In this document: positions 41,178 through 47,719 of the stretch, piece after piece | Position numbering within the stretch: position 1 is the stretch's first letter | Layout: every line of letters begins with the position of its first letter | Source: Verrucomicrobiia bacterium | GTDB lineage: Bacteria > Verrucomicrobiota > Verrucomicrobiia > Opitutales > Cerasicoccaceae | Assembly: GCA_030432235.1 (NCBI GenBank) | Contig: JAUIHT010000001.1 | Span: 310,001 to 374,000 of the forward strand | Length of the DNA stretch: 64,000 bases | Direction: 5' to 3' | Position numbers and translations under genes: made by a program | Notes under the pieces: model-generated | What the model saw: only the letters and a program-made list of their open reading frames with translations | What the model was told of the DNA's origin: nothing | The model's database searches: none

Positions 41178-41430
41178 AGGCAGTGGTGGAAGCCGTGCTT
41201 GGGCTTTCGTCTTATTGTACCAAAAGCTTTCTCTGGCAGAGTCACAAGGGGCTTGCGCTTTAAGGGCTTAGCACATCGGGTCCAGAGTGTATTTAGGGCT
41301 GTGAATAACTTGCGAACAAAAATGAAAAACTTTCGTTTGCGCTGCTGTGTGGAGACATCAGTGTGTTTTGTCGTTGCCCACCCATCCCTCTGCTTTAGCG
41401 ATCGTACATTACTCTATTGGTAGCGCTAAT
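41178..41430. other. Intergenic region before the nrdB regulatory site
   Basis: No gene is supported in these 253 bases between the BLUF gene and the NrdR-box pair. The DNA is of mixed composition and ORFs through it have no start with a ribosome site or a recognisable product. Confidence 0.4.
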
Positions 41431-41478
41431 TTCCTATATCTAGGGTCTTTTTGCAAAAAAATACACTAGATGTAGTAG
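41431..41478 (+). promoter_or_regulatory. Pair of NrdR boxes upstream of nrdB
   Basis: Two 16-base palindromes fit the NrdR consensus ACACWATATATWGTGT: box A at 41431-41446 (core CTATATCTAG) and box B at 41463-41478 (core CTAGATGTAG). Their centres are exactly 32 bases apart, three helical turns, as expected for cooperative NrdR binding. A TTGACA at 41485-41490 just downstream may be the -35 of the nrdB promoter, with CATGCT 17 bases on as a weak -10. Confidence 0.75.
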
Positions 41479-41612
41479 AGAGGCTTGACAGAAATGATGG
41501 GCGAACGCATGCTCCGAGTCACCCAATGAGGCAAAAACCGGGTCATTTTGGCCCCTATTGATCGCCCAAATACTTATTCTCGAATAATTAACAAATTCAG
41601 CTAGACGACGCT

Positions 41613-42704
41613 ATGGAGGTCACCGAAATCAAGATCGGAAACAAGACGTTCACTTTGGACAAGGATAAGGCCGAGGAGGCCTATCGGGCCAAAATGATCA
41701 TCAACGGCCGCGAGACGATGTTCTTTAACATCCTGCCGCTCAAATACCAGTGGGCCTACGATCTCTACAAGACGATGAAGGCGAATCACTGGGAGCCTGA
41801 GGACGTCCCGATGCAGAAGGATGTCGAGCAGTGGCGCGACACAACCGATCAGATTACCGACATCGACCGCTGGATTATCAAGATGGCCATCGGGTACTTC
41901 TCCGCCGCCGAGGGCATCGTGGGTGACAACATCATCCATGTCGTGCGCGAGTTGGTGACCGCGCCGGAGCTGAAGCTGGCCCTGGGGCGTCACGCGCACG
42001 AGGAAAACATCCACGCGGACAGCCTCGTTTACATGATCTCCTCGCTCGGCATCAACCCGCACGAGTGCGAGGCGATGTTTACCGACGTCAAGACCATCGA
42101 CAAGAAGGCGCAGTTCGTCGTGCGTAATTCCCGCGGCCTGCGTCGCGACCTCGACTTGACCGACACCGCCAACAAGCAGGCGCTGACCAAAAACATTTTC
42201 CTCTTCGGCCAGGTGATGGAGGGGACTCAGTTCTACGGCCTCTTTGGCATGGTGCTGAGCCTTTACCGCCAGTCGAAGTTCCCGGGCATCGGCCAGATGT
42301 TCCGTTACACCCTCCGGGACGAGTCCAACCACATCGAGCTTTTCCGCAACCTGCTCATGGATCTGGTCGAGGAAAATCCCGACGTGTGGACCGCCGAGTT
42401 CAAGGAAGAGCTGCGCGCCACCATGAAGGAGGGCATCGAACTGGAAAAGGAATTTATCCGCGACTGCCTGCCGATCAACGCTCTCGGCCTCTCCCCGGAC
42501 GAGTTCGAGCAGTACATCGACTACATCGCCGACCGCCGCCTTGAGGGTTGCGGCCTGGCCACGCTCAATCAGGGCGTGCAAAATCCCTTCCCCTGGCTCT
42601 CCGAAATGATGGACATCAAGAAGGAAGCCAACTTCTTCGAACAGCGCGTCACCGAATACCAGAAGGCATCCGCCCTCGACGCCGTCGATGACGACGACCT
42701 CTAA
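41613..42704 (+). CDS. nrdB: Ribonucleotide reductase small subunit, class Ic-like
   Basis: The 363-residue R2 protein makes the radical that starts ribonucleotide reduction in R1. Metal ligands are Glu100, Glu131, His134, Glu203, Glu237 and His240 (motifs SAAEGIV, EENIHADS, MEGTQFY, DESNH). The position of the radical tyrosine (Tyr122 in E. coli) is Leu138, and the first ligand is Glu instead of Asp; both features and the spacing match the Chlamydia class Ic enzyme (Phe127, Glu89), which uses a Mn/Fe cofactor. The C-terminal acidic tail would bind R1. nrdA follows at 44453 after two opposite-strand genes, and both have NrdR-box pairs. Confidence 0.93.
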   Translation: MEVTEIKIGNKTFTLDKDKAEEAYRAKMIINGRETMFFNILPLKYQWAYDLYKTMKANHWEPEDVPMQKDVEQWRDTTDQITDIDRWIIKMAIGYFSAAEGIVGDNIIHVVRELVTAPELKLALGRHAHEENIHADSLVYMISSLGINPHECEAMFTDVKTIDKKAQFVVRNSRGLRRDLDLTDTANKQALTKNIFLFGQVMEGTQFYGLFGMVLSLYRQSKFPGIGQMFRYTLRDESNHIELFRNLLMDLVEENPDVWTAEFKEELRATMKEGIELEKEFIRDCLPINALGLSPDEFEQYIDYIADRRLEGCGLATLNQGVQNPFPWLSEMMDIKKEANFFEQRVTEYQKASALDAVDDDDL

Positions 42705-42808
42705 TCTTTTTAACCCAAACCCTTTCAAGAAGCGTCTTTAGTTTTCCTTATTTTAAGTAGCGCTCCAATGCGCTCTTGTGTAAGTGGCATGGTGATAAAA
42801 TGGTAAGC

Positions 42809-42841
42809 GAAGGGCCGCGGAAGGACATGCCGCGGCCCTTC
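42809..42841 (+). terminator. Strong hairpin terminator after nrdB
   Basis: GAAGGGCCGCGG (42809-42820) and CCGCGGCCCTTC (42830-42841) form a perfect 12-base-pair stem over a 9-base loop. It stands 105 bases past the nrdB stop and about 70 bases before the convergent gene's stop, so it may end transcripts from both directions. There is only a weak T-rich tail. Confidence 0.7.
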
Positions 42842-42908
42842 CGTTATGTGCGGTGCAGTCTGGAGCGAGCAGCCCCGCAATCGCGTTTTCCAAACAAACG
42901 TCCTTTGC

Positions 42909-43565
42909 TCACGCGTTGCGCACGAGCCGGAGTTTCCAGGCGGCCGCGACGGTGATAAGGATCACGGCGGAGACGCCCATGGGGTAGGGGTGTGGCGCAA
43001 AGCGTTGCAGCAGTCCGCCGAGGAGCGCTCCGCTGAAATAGGCCAGCCAGCTCCACGCCGGGATCGAGCGATGCGGCGGCACTTTTTTTGCAGACGGGAC
43101 ACCCACCCAGCGACGGATGACCGTGACCAGTGTGTTGGTGACCACTACCGTGCTCACGCCCGTGACGCCGATCTGCTGAACAGCGCTGGCCTGCAAGCCC
43201 ATGGCGAAGGCCGTCAAAACAGGCGCATAGATTTCCGGCAAGCCGAAGAAGAGCGAGGCGGCTCCACCTAGCAACACGCAGCCGGAAATAAAAATCACGC
43301 GTCGGACAGCAGACGACCAGCCGTCGGCCGCCTCCCGCAGGATCCGACATCCGATGGCCGCACCCAGGCAGAAGGCGACGAGTACCAGCCCGGCCAGCCA
43401 GGCGCCTTCGATCTTTACCGTGGCCACGGCCAGCGCCAGCACGACCGAATTGCCCGTCATGTTGGCCGGAAAGACGCCGGCAGTCATGAACCCCGCGGCG
43501 TCGACGCAGCCCGCTCCCAGGCTGAGGGCTATGAGCAGGTGGTCGGACTGGAACCCGCGGGACAT
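42909..43565 (-). CDS. DUF1275 (YoaK-like) membrane protein
   Basis: The protein has 218 residues from ATG 43565. The conserved family opening is seen: LIALSLGAGCVDAAGFMTAGVFPANMTGNSVVLALA, followed by six hydrophobic segments. The pattern TGNSV...A at the first helix pair, then QIGVTGVSTVVVTNTL, marks the DUF1275/YoaK family. No activity is known for these small integral membrane proteins. It is 14 bp after the minus-strand hypothetical gene that starts at 44026, so they may be cotranscribed, and both lie between nrdB and nrdA on the opposite strand. Confidence 0.85.
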   Translation of the reverse strand: MSRGFQSDHLLIALSLGAGCVDAAGFMTAGVFPANMTGNSVVLALAVATVKIEGAWLAGLVLVAFCLGAAIGCRILREAADGWSSAVRRVIFISGCVLLGGAASLFFGLPEIYAPVLTAFAMGLQASAVQQIGVTGVSTVVVTNTLVTVIRRWVGVPSAKKVPPHRSIPAWSWLAYFSGALLGGLLQRFAPHPYPMGVSAVILITVAAAWKLRLVRNA

Positions 43566-43579
43566 GGGCTTACGTGGAA

Positions 43580-44026
43580 TTAGCGGATGGTGAGATCGTC
43601 CTCTTGGGACCATCCTTCAAGGTACACCGAGTCGGCGTCCGCATAAAGAAACTCGAAAAACGCTTCATCTCCATAGGGAATCAGATCTGCCTGGGCGGGC
43701 ATATCCTTGACCACCCAGACGAGGGCGACCTTTTCACCACCGATAATTTCCCGCACGCGTGCCACAAGATTTTCAAAGGCCTCGTGTGGCTTGGGATACA
43801 GCTGATAGTAGACGGCGTATTCCGAGAATGAGAGGTAGACAGATTCTTCGATGGAGCAGAACTCGATGACGCGCTCGTTATCGCGGTTCTTTATTTCAAA
43901 TCCGATAAACGGGTCTCCCTCTTCGTCGGTTTCTTCCGAGAGGACCAGCATTTCAAAGATATCCGCATGCTCCTGTTTTATGTACTCGTAAAGTCGTGTC
44001 CCGATGACATCGTCCTCGATTTCCAT
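43580..44026 (-). CDS. Acidic hypothetical protein
   Basis: The 148-residue soluble protein is strongly acidic with Glu/Asp-rich stretches (EEDVIGT..., ETDEEGDP, GWSQEDDL). Its alternating beta and helix pattern (VALVWVVKDM; AYYQLYPKPHEAFENLVARVREII) suggests a small alpha/beta fold. No signal peptide or catalytic motif is seen. I do not recognise the family. Start ATG 44026 leaves about 130 bases to the NrdR-box pair of the divergent nrdA. Confidence 0.6.
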   Translation of the reverse strand: MEIEDDVIGTRLYEYIKQEHADIFEMLVLSEETDEEGDPFIGFEIKNRDNERVIEFCSIEESVYLSFSEYAVYYQLYPKPHEAFENLVARVREIIGGEKVALVWVVKDMPAQADLIPYGDEAFFEFLYADADSVYLEGWSQEDDLTIR

Positions 44027-44174
44027 GGTGCGAAAAAGGTGCCCAAGTCTTTTTCCGCGAGCAAGCCAATAGGTGGGAATGTGGTAAAGTGTTCTGTCAC
44101 CGTTTGGTCACACGCGTGTAACGAAAAATCGGTTGGTGAAGAACTTTTCACAAAAAAACCTTTGACAGTCCCGA

Positions 44175-44222
44175 TTACTAGATATTGTGTTGAGCGACTA
44201 TCTTGGACACAAGATATAGTAA
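44175..44222 (+). promoter_or_regulatory. Pair of NrdR boxes upstream of nrdA
   Basis: Box A at 44175-44190 (TTACTAGATATTGTGT) and box B at 44207-44222 (ACACAAGATATAGTAA) both match the NrdR-box consensus, and their centres are exactly 32 bases apart, the same spacing as at nrdB. TTGACA at 44162-44167 lies directly upstream and may be a -35 hexamer overlapped by box A. The leader to ATG 44453 is about 230 bases. Confidence 0.8.
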
Positions 44223-44452
44223 ATATAACTCTCGCTTTGCATGGCAATAAGTTCCAACAACTTACCATTGTGCGCGCGGCGCGAGGTGCTTTTATCAAGC
44301 GTTATGTTTCAACCCCGCGCCGCTGCGCCCCATTGCATCGGCTAGCTATCGAGAGTGGTTTTCCGCTCTTTTCAGACCCGCTTTCGCAGACCTGCAAACC
44401 TGACATACTATCTATTAACATCTAGACCGACCCAGAAAGGAAAACCTGTCCT

Positions 44453-47400
44453 ATGATCCGTAAGAATTTTTTCGATGAAGACCTCGCCCTGAAGCGCTTC
44501 GTGGCCACTCCGGCCGAGCAGAAGCCGCGCTTCAACTGGCGCGAGGTGGTGAGCGAAGACCAATTTTCGCAGCCGGAAATCAGCATCGAAATCCAGGGCA
44601 TCGCCAAGGCCTTCGATCTGGCCGAAGTCGCCGATATGATCGGCGCCGCGTTGACCGACCTGCTCCTTTCCCGTGACGAGAGTGACATCTACAACGACAA
44701 GAACCGTCAGTTTGTGGCCATTGTGGCCGAGCGCGTGGCCGCGCACATCGCCCGTCAGATTGAAGCCGATGCCGATTTCACCCTCAGCCAGTCCGACCTC
44801 AACCTCGTCATCGAGCGCGTGTTGGTCGAACTGGACGCCTACGATGTGGCCAAGAGCCTCATCGTGCGCCAGGCCCTCAACGGCGGCAGCAAAGGCGTCG
44901 AAGAGGAAGCCAAGGAGGTCGAGCCGCTCAATGTGCGCCTCATCCGCCGCAACCGGCAGGTGGTACCCTGGGACCAGAACAAGGTCGAGGTGGCCATCCG
45001 CAAAGCATTTCTTTCGCTACATCTGGATGCTACACCCGCGGTCGCGGTGGCTCAGGCCGTGACCGAGCGTGTGCGCCAGATGGGCGAAGCCTTTGTTCAT
45101 ATCGAAACCGTGCAGGACCTCGTTCAGGAGGAGTTGATGAAAGCCGGGCAGTTCAAGGCCGCCGAGGCTTACATCCTCTACCGCGCGCATCGTCGTTTAC
45201 GGCGCGATCAGGAAGCCGACGAAGTCATCGAGGAGGACAGCCGCCAGGACGCCATGATCATGATCAAGGCGGCCGACGGCTCCACCGAGTTCTGGAATGC
45301 CGACGAACTGCGCAAGCGCATCGACTTCGCCAGCATCGGCCTCGACCTGTGCTTGTCCAAGGAGCAGATCGAAACCGAGCTGCGCCGCTCCCTCTATGCG
45401 GAAATGACCCGCGAGGACCTGCGGAAGACCATCATCCTCAACTCCAAGAGCCTGATCGAGAAGGACGCCGACTTCGCCAAGTTCGCCGGCCGCATCCTCG
45501 TGTCCTATATCTACGAGGAAGTCCTCGGCTGGGACATCGTCTCCGACGGCATCGAAGGTCTCAAGGAAGCCCATCGCGTCTATTTCAAGAAGTACCTCAA
45601 GCGTGGCGTGGCTATTGAGCGCCTCGACAAGAAGCTGCTCGGTTACGATCTGGACCGCCTGGCCGATGCTCTCGACCCCTCCGCGGATCTGGATTTCGAC
45701 TACCTCGGCATCTCCACCCTGTACGACCGCTACCTCATCGTCGACAAGACGGTGAAGCCGGCCCGCCGTCTGGAAACGCCGCAGCTCTTCTGGATGCGTG
45801 TGTCGATGGGCCTCTTCCATCAGGAAAAGGAAGACCGCGAAGGCTGGGTTATCTCCCTGTACAATCTCTACAAGAGCCGCCGTTTCTGTTCCTCCACGCC
45901 GACGCTCTTTAACTCCGGCACCCTGCACAGCCAGCTTTCCAGCTGCTACCTGTATCAGGTGGACGACTCCATCGAGTCGATCATGAACCGCGGCATCGCC
46001 GAAAACGCCTTCCTCTCGAAGTGGGCCGGCGGCCTTGGCGGCTCCTGGACCTCCGTCCGCGGCACCGGCAGCTACATCAAGGGCACCAACGGCGAGTCCC
46101 AGGGCGTCATCCCCTTCCTCAAGCTGCATAACGACCAGCTCGTGGCCGTTAACCAGGGCGGCAAGCGTCGCGGTTCCGGCTGTGCCTATCTGGAAACCTG
46201 GCACAACGACATCATGGACTTCCTCGAGTTGCGCCGCAACACCGGGGATGACCGTCGCCGCACCCACGACATGAACACGGCCAACTGGATTCCTGACCTG
46301 TTCATGAAGCGCATGGAAAACCGCGAGGACTGGACCCTCTTCCGCTCCAATGAAGCGCCCGACCTGCACGAGTCCTACGGCCAGGCCTTTGAGGAAAAGT
46401 ACCTCGCTTACGAAGCCAAAGTCGAAGCCGGTCAGATGTGGGGCCAGAAAGTGAAGGCCATTGACCTGTGGAAGCAGATGCTCCGCATGCTCTTCGAGAC
46501 CGGTCACCCCTGGATCACTTTCAAGGACCCCTGTAACGTCCGCAGCCCGCAGGACCACGCTGGCGTCATTCACAGTTCCAACCTCTGCACCGAGATCACG
46601 CTCAATACTGGCGCCGACGAGACCGCCGTGTGCAACCTTGGCTCCGTTGTGCTCGACACCCACGTCAAGAGCGACGGCACCCTCGACCTGGAGATGCTCC
46701 GTGAAACCGTCCGCATCGCCGTGCGCGCGCTGGACAACGTCATCGACATCAACTTCTACCCGACCGGCCCGGCCAAGACCGCCAACAGCCGCCACCGCCC
46801 CATCGGGCTCGGCGTGATGGGCGTGCACAACGCCCTGTACAAGAAGGACGTTAACTTCGCCAGCGACGCCGCGGTGGAGTTCAACGACGAGTTCATGGAA
46901 GCCATCGCTTACTACGCCTACGAGGCCTCCAGCGACCTGGCCGCTGAACGCGAGCCCTACAGCAGCTTCAAAGGCTCCAAGTGGGACCGAGGCATGCTGC
47001 CGCTCGACACCCTCGACCTGCTGGAAAAAGAGCGCGGCCAAACCATCGAGGTACCCCGCACCAGTCGCATGGACTGGGATTCCCTGCGCGGCAAAATCAA
47101 GAAGCAGGGCATGCGCAACAGTAACGTCCTGGCCATCGCGCCCACGGCAACTATCTCGAACATCATGGGCACCAGCCCCTGTATCGAGCCCTACTACAAG
47201 AACCTCTACGTTAAGAGCAACCTCGGCGGCGAGTTCATCATCCTCAACGCTAACCTCGTGCGCGACCTGAAGAAACTCGGTCTGTGGGGCCAGGAAATGG
47301 TCGACCAGCTCAAGTACTTCGACGGGGAGCTCGACAGCATCGAGGAAATCCCGGATGACCTGAAGGAAAAGTACAGCACCTCCTTCGGCATCGACTACAA

Positions 47401-47719
47401 CTGGCTGGTAGAGGCCGCCGCCCGTCGCCAGAAGTGGATCGATCAGTCCCAGAGCGTCAACCTCTTCCTGGTCAAGCCGGACCTCAAGGTGCTCTCGCAC
47501 ATGTACCGCGCCGCCTGGCGCAAGGGCCTCAAGACCACTTACTACCTGCGCACACAGCAGGCCTCCAACGTTGAAAAGAGCACCACCACGCAGAAGAAAG
47601 AGCTGCGCGGGCTGGTGGCCGGCGGTGAAGCGCCCAAGAAGGAATACACCGCCGAGGAAAAGATGGCCTGCAGCATTGAGGCTATGCGCAACGGTGAAGA
47701 ATGCGAGGCTTGCCAGTAG
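44453..47719 (+). CDS. nrdA: Ribonucleotide reductase large subunit with repeated ATP-cones
   Basis: The 1088-residue R1 is much longer than E. coli NrdA (761). The extra N-terminal 370 residues hold ATP-cone units: one at about 159-250 (LNVRLIRRNRQVVPWDQNK...), one at about 268-360 (MIKAADGSTEFWNADELRKR...), and before them a less conserved cone-like stretch. Catalytic features follow: LSSCYLYQ (first active Cys), NLCTEITLNTGADETAVCNLGSV (thiyl Cys and partner), TTYYLRTQQAS (radical-path Tyr pair), and the C-terminal redox pair CEAC. Repeated cones are known from Chlamydia NrdA and add layered dATP control. It pairs with the class Ic-like nrdB. Confidence 0.95.
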   Translation: MIRKNFFDEDLALKRFVATPAEQKPRFNWREVVSEDQFSQPEISIEIQGIAKAFDLAEVADMIGAALTDLLLSRDESDIYNDKNRQFVAIVAERVAAHIARQIEADADFTLSQSDLNLVIERVLVELDAYDVAKSLIVRQALNGGSKGVEEEAKEVEPLNVRLIRRNRQVVPWDQNKVEVAIRKAFLSLHLDATPAVAVAQAVTERVRQMGEAFVHIETVQDLVQEELMKAGQFKAAEAYILYRAHRRLRRDQEADEVIEEDSRQDAMIMIKAADGSTEFWNADELRKRIDFASIGLDLCLSKEQIETELRRSLYAEMTREDLRKTIILNSKSLIEKDADFAKFAGRILVSYIYEEVLGWDIVSDGIEGLKEAHRVYFKKYLKRGVAIERLDKKLLGYDLDRLADALDPSADLDFDYLGISTLYDRYLIVDKTVKPARRLETPQLFWMRVSMGLFHQEKEDREGWVISLYNLYKSRRFCSSTPTLFNSGTLHSQLSSCYLYQVDDSIESIMNRGIAENAFLSKWAGGLGGSWTSVRGTGSYIKGTNGESQGVIPFLKLHNDQLVAVNQGGKRRGSGCAYLETWHNDIMDFLELRRNTGDDRRRTHDMNTANWIPDLFMKRMENREDWTLFRSNEAPDLHESYGQAFEEKYLAYEAKVEAGQMWGQKVKAIDLWKQMLRMLFETGHPWITFKDPCNVRSPQDHAGVIHSSNLCTEITLNTGADETAVCNLGSVVLDTHVKSDGTLDLEMLRETVRIAVRALDNVIDINFYPTGPAKTANSRHRPIGLGVMGVHNALYKKDVNFASDAAVEFNDEFMEAIAYYAYEASSDLAAEREPYSSFKGSKWDRGMLPLDTLDLLEKERGQTIEVPRTSRMDWDSLRGKIKKQGMRNSNVLAIAPTATISNIMGTSPCIEPYYKNLYVKSNLGGEFIILNANLVRDLKKLGLWGQEMVDQLKYFDGELDSIEEIPDDLKEKYSTSFGIDYNWLVEAAARRQKWIDQSQSVNLFLVKPDLKVLSHMYRAAWRKGLKTTYYLRTQQASNVEKSTTTQKKELRGLVAGGEAPKKEYTAEEKMACSIEAMRNGEECEACQ

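Follow-up and report, generated by a model that had tools for sequence, protein, structure and literature searches.

How can the genes for the two subunits of class I ribonucleotide reductase (RNR), nrdB and nrdA, stay under common control once they no longer form an operon? The question is raised by the window analysed here, a 64-kb stretch (positions 310001-374000 of its contig) of the 5.72-Mb genome of a bacterium from the Cerasicoccaceae. According to the initial annotation, nrdA lies about 1.7 kb from nrdB, with 2 opposite-strand genes in between, and is preceded by an NrdR repressor box pair of its own. The layout was confirmed: the 2 genes are 1,748 bp apart, and the gap holds a DUF1275 gene and a 148-aa open reading frame (ORF), the latter not found at the same place in other genera (Table 1). 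The region 3' of nrdB (42795-42860) folds with −29.5 kcal/mol (z −3.1). Given this strong hairpin and the 2 opposite-strand ORFs, nrdA needs a promoter of its own. As a separate observation, NrdB has Leu at the usual position of the radical Tyr, as in all 80 nrdB loci compared; the residue is Phe in the Chlamydia trachomatis-like chain 1syy.

Table 1. Features of the nrdB and nrdA region, numbered from the first letter of the window.
Feature	Position	Strand	Remarks
DnaA-box-like site upstream of nrdB, TGTGAATAA	41300..41308	+	Reverse complement of TTATTCACA; in 10/10 Cerasicoccaceae
Weak copy of second conserved element, upstream of nrdB	41316..41339	+	16.3 bits
NrdR box 1 of nrdB, TTCCTATATCTAGGGT	41431..41446	+
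NrdR box 2 of nrdB, ACACTAGATGTAGTAG	41463..41478	+	Starts 32 bp from nrdB box 1
Candidate nrdB promoter, TTGACA-17-CATGCT	41485..41513	+	Directly 3' of box 2; A2 and T6 kept in 10/10
nrdB	41613..42704	+	Class I RNR small subunit, 363 aa; Pfam and NCBIfam
Strong hairpin 3' of nrdB	42809..42841	+	Likely terminator between convergent genes
DUF1275 gene	42909..43613	−	Between nrdB and nrdA
148-aa ORF	43580..44026	−	Divergent from nrdA; without family match
Candidate −35 of nrdA, TTGACA	44162..44167	+	Directly 5' of box 1; invariant in 10/10 Cerasicoccaceae
NrdR box 1 of nrdA, TTACTAGATATTGTGT	44175..44190	+	Kept in 10/10 Cerasicoccaceae genomes
NrdR box 2 of nrdA, ACACAAGATATAGTAA	44207..44222	+	Starts 32 bp from box 1
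Second conserved element, ATAAGTTCCAACAACTTACCATTG	44247..44270	+	24 bp after nrdA box 2
nrdA	44453..47719	+	Class I RNR large subunit, 1088 aa, with ATP-cone; Pfam and NCBIfam

NrdR boxes at nrdA and across the genome

NrdR boxes follow the consensus acaCwAtATaTwGtgt. The 2 boxes proposed upstream of nrdA were found at exactly the expected coordinates; each is 16 bp long, 16 bp lie in between, and both have a perfect core against the consensus. Single boxes with up to 3 mismatches occur 10 times in the 64-kb window, not significantly more than the 7.2 expected. The pair pattern CWANATNTWG-N22-CWANATNTWG has 2 exact matches in the window, at nrdB and nrdA, and none in 100 shuffles; allowing up to 3 mismatches still recovers just those 2, with 0.59 expected.

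The whole genome contains 4 perfect box pairs, all at RNR genes: those of nrdB and nrdA, one located 23 bp before the ATG of nrdJ, which encodes the class II RNR, and one 56 bp before the ATG of nrdD in nrdDG, where the activase gene nrdG then follows nrdD. The reversed control pattern has no perfect match in this genome. A single complete nrdR gene is present (174.8 bits versus a cut-off of 124.65), with both the Zn-ribbon and the ATP-cone. Because all 4 perfect pairs lie at RNR genes and nrdR is complete, all 3 RNR classes of the genome appear to form one NrdR regulon. The nrdA pair combines several features of an NrdR operator, namely, a match to the consensus, helix-turn spacing, an RNR gene downstream, an encoded NrdR and conservation in relatives.

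Imperfect pairs were also noted. One with a single mismatch is located directly upstream of gyrB in the genome of the window, and another genome, G104, has an NrdR-like pair directly upstream of gyrB. Similar pairs occur in G083 and G117 (G117:C33:5511). A further NrdR-like pair is common to 2 genomes (L160 at 3763; G117:C22:67105); in G104 (L160 at 3763) its neighbors on either side are a response-regulator phosphatase gene and a 124-aa ORF, as named from their translations.

Separation of nrdB and nrdA in the Cerasicoccaceae and comparison with the rest of the order

We searched 132 genomes of the order, 85 of which yielded an NrdB match; 80 were retained after removal of 4 distant matches (G038, G053, G103, and G059) and 1 broken one (G099), providing 78 scorable upstream stretches for nrdB and 78 for nrdA. 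Pairs were scored against a threshold of 23, which was set after the shuffles had been seen. The Cerasicoccaceae (family f1 in this comparison) are represented by 10 genomes.

In all 10, nrdB and nrdA are separate, at distances of 1.3-2.1 kb in 7 genomes and 19 kb in G039; in G094 they are 233 kb apart, and in G129 they lie on separate contigs. Each of these genomes, G094 and G039 included, has one pair at nrdB and another at nrdA, with nrdA pairs scoring 23.5 to 27.5, whereas the best score among 780 shuffled nrdB upstream stretches was 22.5. The gap between the boxes is 15 or 16 bp at either gene. Thus, the identical 32-bp step previously pointed out for the 2 genes is real in the window, but across the family the step is 31 or 32 bp at either of them. 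Since a step of 31-32 bp is the general NrdR geometry, equal spacing is expected and is no special evidence of coupling.

The second pair is linked to the split. Outside the Cerasicoccaceae, 60 of 68 genomes have a pair before nrdB, and only one, G028, has a separate pair before nrdA. The nrdB-nrdA gap is at most 400 bp in 61 of these 68 genomes, and none of the 61 has an nrdA pair, although in 9 of them the gap is too short to hold one. Among the 7 genomes with wider gaps, the pair is present in G028 and absent from the other 6 (gaps of 430-629 bp), so an nrdA pair does not follow from gap widening in every case. Because nrdB of G028 is followed by a strong terminator hairpin at the start of the gap, this genome looks like another case in which the operon broke up and nrdA has a separate operator, probably independent of the case in the Cerasicoccaceae. 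The latter are one clade, and their 10 genomes therefore amount to one event, with G028 perhaps a second. Among 80 titled GTDB loci, the species of which are partly shared with the genome set, pairs were found in 5 members of the Cerasicoccaceae and in the G028 contig; the other 74 all score 19.0 or less, including 11 without room for a pair.

A distinct type of site was observed in family f14, where the pairs before nrdB are GC-centred at all 6 loci (L101, L102, L115, L125, L126, and L128), e.g., CCACAACGGGTTGTGG, with a step of exactly 32 bp. NrdR is present for these 6 loci, and its specificity is perhaps altered in this family.

The original suggestion that an NrdR operator could keep the split pair coordinately regulated is supported by the presence of nrdR, the retention of the nrdA pair in all 10 genomes, even across 233 kb, and the differing intervening genes. 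We consider it very likely that the nrdA pair serves as an NrdR operator for a transcription unit of nrdA alone. With a genuine NrdR pair at nrdA, the 2 halves of the enzyme are probably still switched together despite the distance between their genes. Our picture of NrdR binding, of repression and co-expression, and of how events were ordered is inferred from the sequences. At high dATP levels, NrdR tetramers with bound ATP and dATP would occupy both boxes, which would lie on one face of the helix 3 turns apart, and the bound NrdR would repress nrdA; the same protein would do likewise at nrdB, nrdJ, and nrdDG. The nrdB-nrdA operon would have been broken up in the ancestor of the Cerasicoccaceae, and the own operator of nrdA would keep both subunits under one nucleotide sensor at any gene distance.

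Promoter geometry and a second conserved element

At both genes, TTGACA adjoins the boxes, on their upstream side at nrdA and on their downstream side at nrdB. A hexamer with A2 and T6 is located exactly 17 bp beyond the TTGACA of nrdB in all 10 Cerasicoccaceae genomes, whereas no −10 hexamer with A2 and T6 occurs 16-18 bp after that of nrdA in any of them. A sigma-70 scan of 41200-44500 returned no promoter by its own rule. Promoters lying outside the boxes had been named beforehand as a refuting outcome; by this measure, the nrdB boxes adjoin the best predicted promoter without overlapping it. NrdR would thus probably block nrdA by covering its promoter and nrdB by sitting against the −35. 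With TTGACA on opposite sides of the boxes, NrdR may repress the 2 genes to a different extent and in a different way; the same arrangement rules out the nrdA promoter as a simple copy of that of nrdB. DnaA-box-like sites, found at nrdB in all 10 Cerasicoccaceae genomes, occur at nrdA in only 2, and their general lack at nrdA indicates that the control of the 2 genes is not identical. Across the order, 38 of 78 genomes have such sites 5' of nrdB, with 4.5 expected.

Downstream of the nrdA boxes lies a second conserved element. ATAANNNNCAACAACTTNNNNTTG is present once in each of the 10 Cerasicoccaceae genomes, 23-26 bp after box 2, with 166-189 nt between the inner CAACAACTT and the nrdA start codon; none of the order's 122 remaining genomes contains this exact form. 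In the Cerasicoccaceae, the copies at nrdA reach 16.0-23.7 bits (p of approximately 0.001 or below versus shuffles), those at nrdB are weaker, and the genome of the window has no second strong copy. An element specific to nrdA was ruled out, since other families have related sites before nrdB; these often lie at −108 to −119 relative to box 1, whereas those of family f14 directly follow box 2. These fixed positions are better evidence for the element than the held-out scores, which are not fully independent because the initial motif had been obtained by scanning with the element of the Cerasicoccaceae themselves. More generally, copies of the 24-bp element AtAAaTttGAATAACTTttgcTTG are found at nrd promoters in different families of the order, in many cases at a constant distance from the NrdR boxes. 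The order TTGAC-box-box-element at the split nrdA matches the operon promoter of family f14. We tentatively entertain the possibility that the split nrdA carries a complete regulatory module, composed of the NrdR pair and the second, undescribed nrd element AtAAaTttGAATAACTTttgcTTG; nrdA may have kept or re-created the ancestral module, and the element would then point to another regulator of the dNTP supply of Verrucomicrobiota.

The element could instead hold the main promoter. In 4 of the 10 Cerasicoccaceae genomes, a better predicted promoter, TTG-16-ATAAT, begins approximately 45 bp past nrdA box 2; if this is the real nrdA promoter, NrdR would sit upstream of it. The NrdR site would then be real, but nrdA would be driven mainly from the element at 44247-44270, with a small NrdR effect and no tight coordination. 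The invariant position of the element within the family, its exact form in 0 of 122 other genomes, the TTG-16-[GC]ATAAT matches at the element in 4 of 10 genomes, and the lack of a −10 with A2 and T6 at 16-18 bp after the upstream TTGACA all favor this reading. However, that TTGACA is itself invariant, the boxes are kept in 10 of 10 genomes, and −10-like hexamers are in only weak excess at the 53 element sites (at least 4 matches in 23, with ~13 expected; at least 5 in 5, with ~2 expected). On balance, we judge a dominant downstream promoter to be rather unlikely.

Attenuation of transcription in the nrdA leader (~200 nt), by means of a hairpin 60-82 nt from the start codon and a short reading frame that spans the element, seems quite improbable. 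In all 10 genomes, [AT]TG does open a frame over the element and the best leader hairpins end at −60 to −82, with TT next in 9; nevertheless, the hairpin energies are weak (combined p of 0.013 ignoring kinship, with 0.025 for the nrdB control), per-leader folding, alifold and hairpin scans gave no consensus fold and partly control-like results, and the conserved letters of the frame are better explained by the element shared with nrdB upstream regions. In the window, the hairpin is located at ~44350-44371 and is followed by T-rich DNA; the corresponding structures, ending 60-82 nt before nrdA in 10 of 10 genomes, are statistically weak. A search of 44150-44500 against Rfam gave one match (E 0.41), far below the gathering score, which was discarded.

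The pair sits between 2 divergent starts, approximately 149 bp from that of the 148-aa ORF (44026), and might serve this gene instead of, or besides, nrdA. The gene next to nrdA varies by genus (DUF1275 with the orphan ORF, a DNA methylase, a PEP-CTERM protein or an outer-membrane efflux protein) and, in G094, lacks the divergent orientation; the pair nevertheless remains 209-230 bp upstream of nrdA across the Cerasicoccaceae. Since the neighbors differ while the pair stays, the operator belongs to nrdA and travels with it. In G094, the nrdA box cores are identical to those in the window and the DNA between the boxes differs. Given also that the other 3 perfect pairs of the genome are all at RNR genes, the 148-aa gene is a very improbable target. 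Palindromes that arose by chance, or a site for a different regulator, can be practically dismissed as explanations of the boxes: single boxes are no more frequent than by chance, but the perfect pairs number 4 in 5.72 Mb, all at RNR genes, are conserved in the Cerasicoccaceae and occur in a genome with a full nrdR.

Comparison with known NrdR systems

The locus offers a clean natural experiment on operon breakup, in which the subunits of an obligate complex were parted, by 233 kb in one species, and each subunit gene apparently retained or acquired the same dNTP-sensing operator. With the 4 sites, a ready candidate NrdR regulon becomes available for this little-studied family of Verrucomicrobiota, and the second element offers a lead, open to testing, towards another possible regulator of DNA precursor supply. 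The regulator, the type of site and the spacing are already known; new are the lineage, the clear tie of operon breakup to a second operator and the lead of the second element. Our literature search found no paper joining Cerasicoccus with ribonucleotide reductase and, for NrdR and Verrucomicrobia, no report of such sites among the papers listed and in the accessible text of PMC4989314.

According to the accessible part of a study on Listeria monocytogenes and Streptococcus pneumoniae (PMC12051234), 2 boxes 15-16 bp apart are the norm, both are needed, and their place relative to the promoter varies. In these 2 species, the boxes may overlap the promoter or lie upstream of both the −35 and the −10, in agreement with our predictions for nrdA and nrdB. 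The spacer is short at the Listeria RNR promoters, as here, and longer in most Streptococcus. A split class I operon, unlike here, is not among the systems described in that part of the study.

DnaA-box-like sites near an RNR promoter, which in the window lie upstream of nrdB, have a counterpart in the DnaA boxes of Escherichia coli nrdAB, as outlined in the available sections of PMC8203912; here, they are sequence matches and mostly missing at nrdA. Another close parallel, judging from the available text of PMC12176259, is the E. coli regulon, in which 2 palindromic 16-bp boxes, 15-16 bp apart, likewise precede the RNR genes (nrdHIEF, nrdDG, and nrdAB) and several RNR units of one genome are under one NrdR. 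In E. coli, however, nrdA and nrdB form a single operon, whereas in the Cerasicoccaceae each gene has a box pair of its own.
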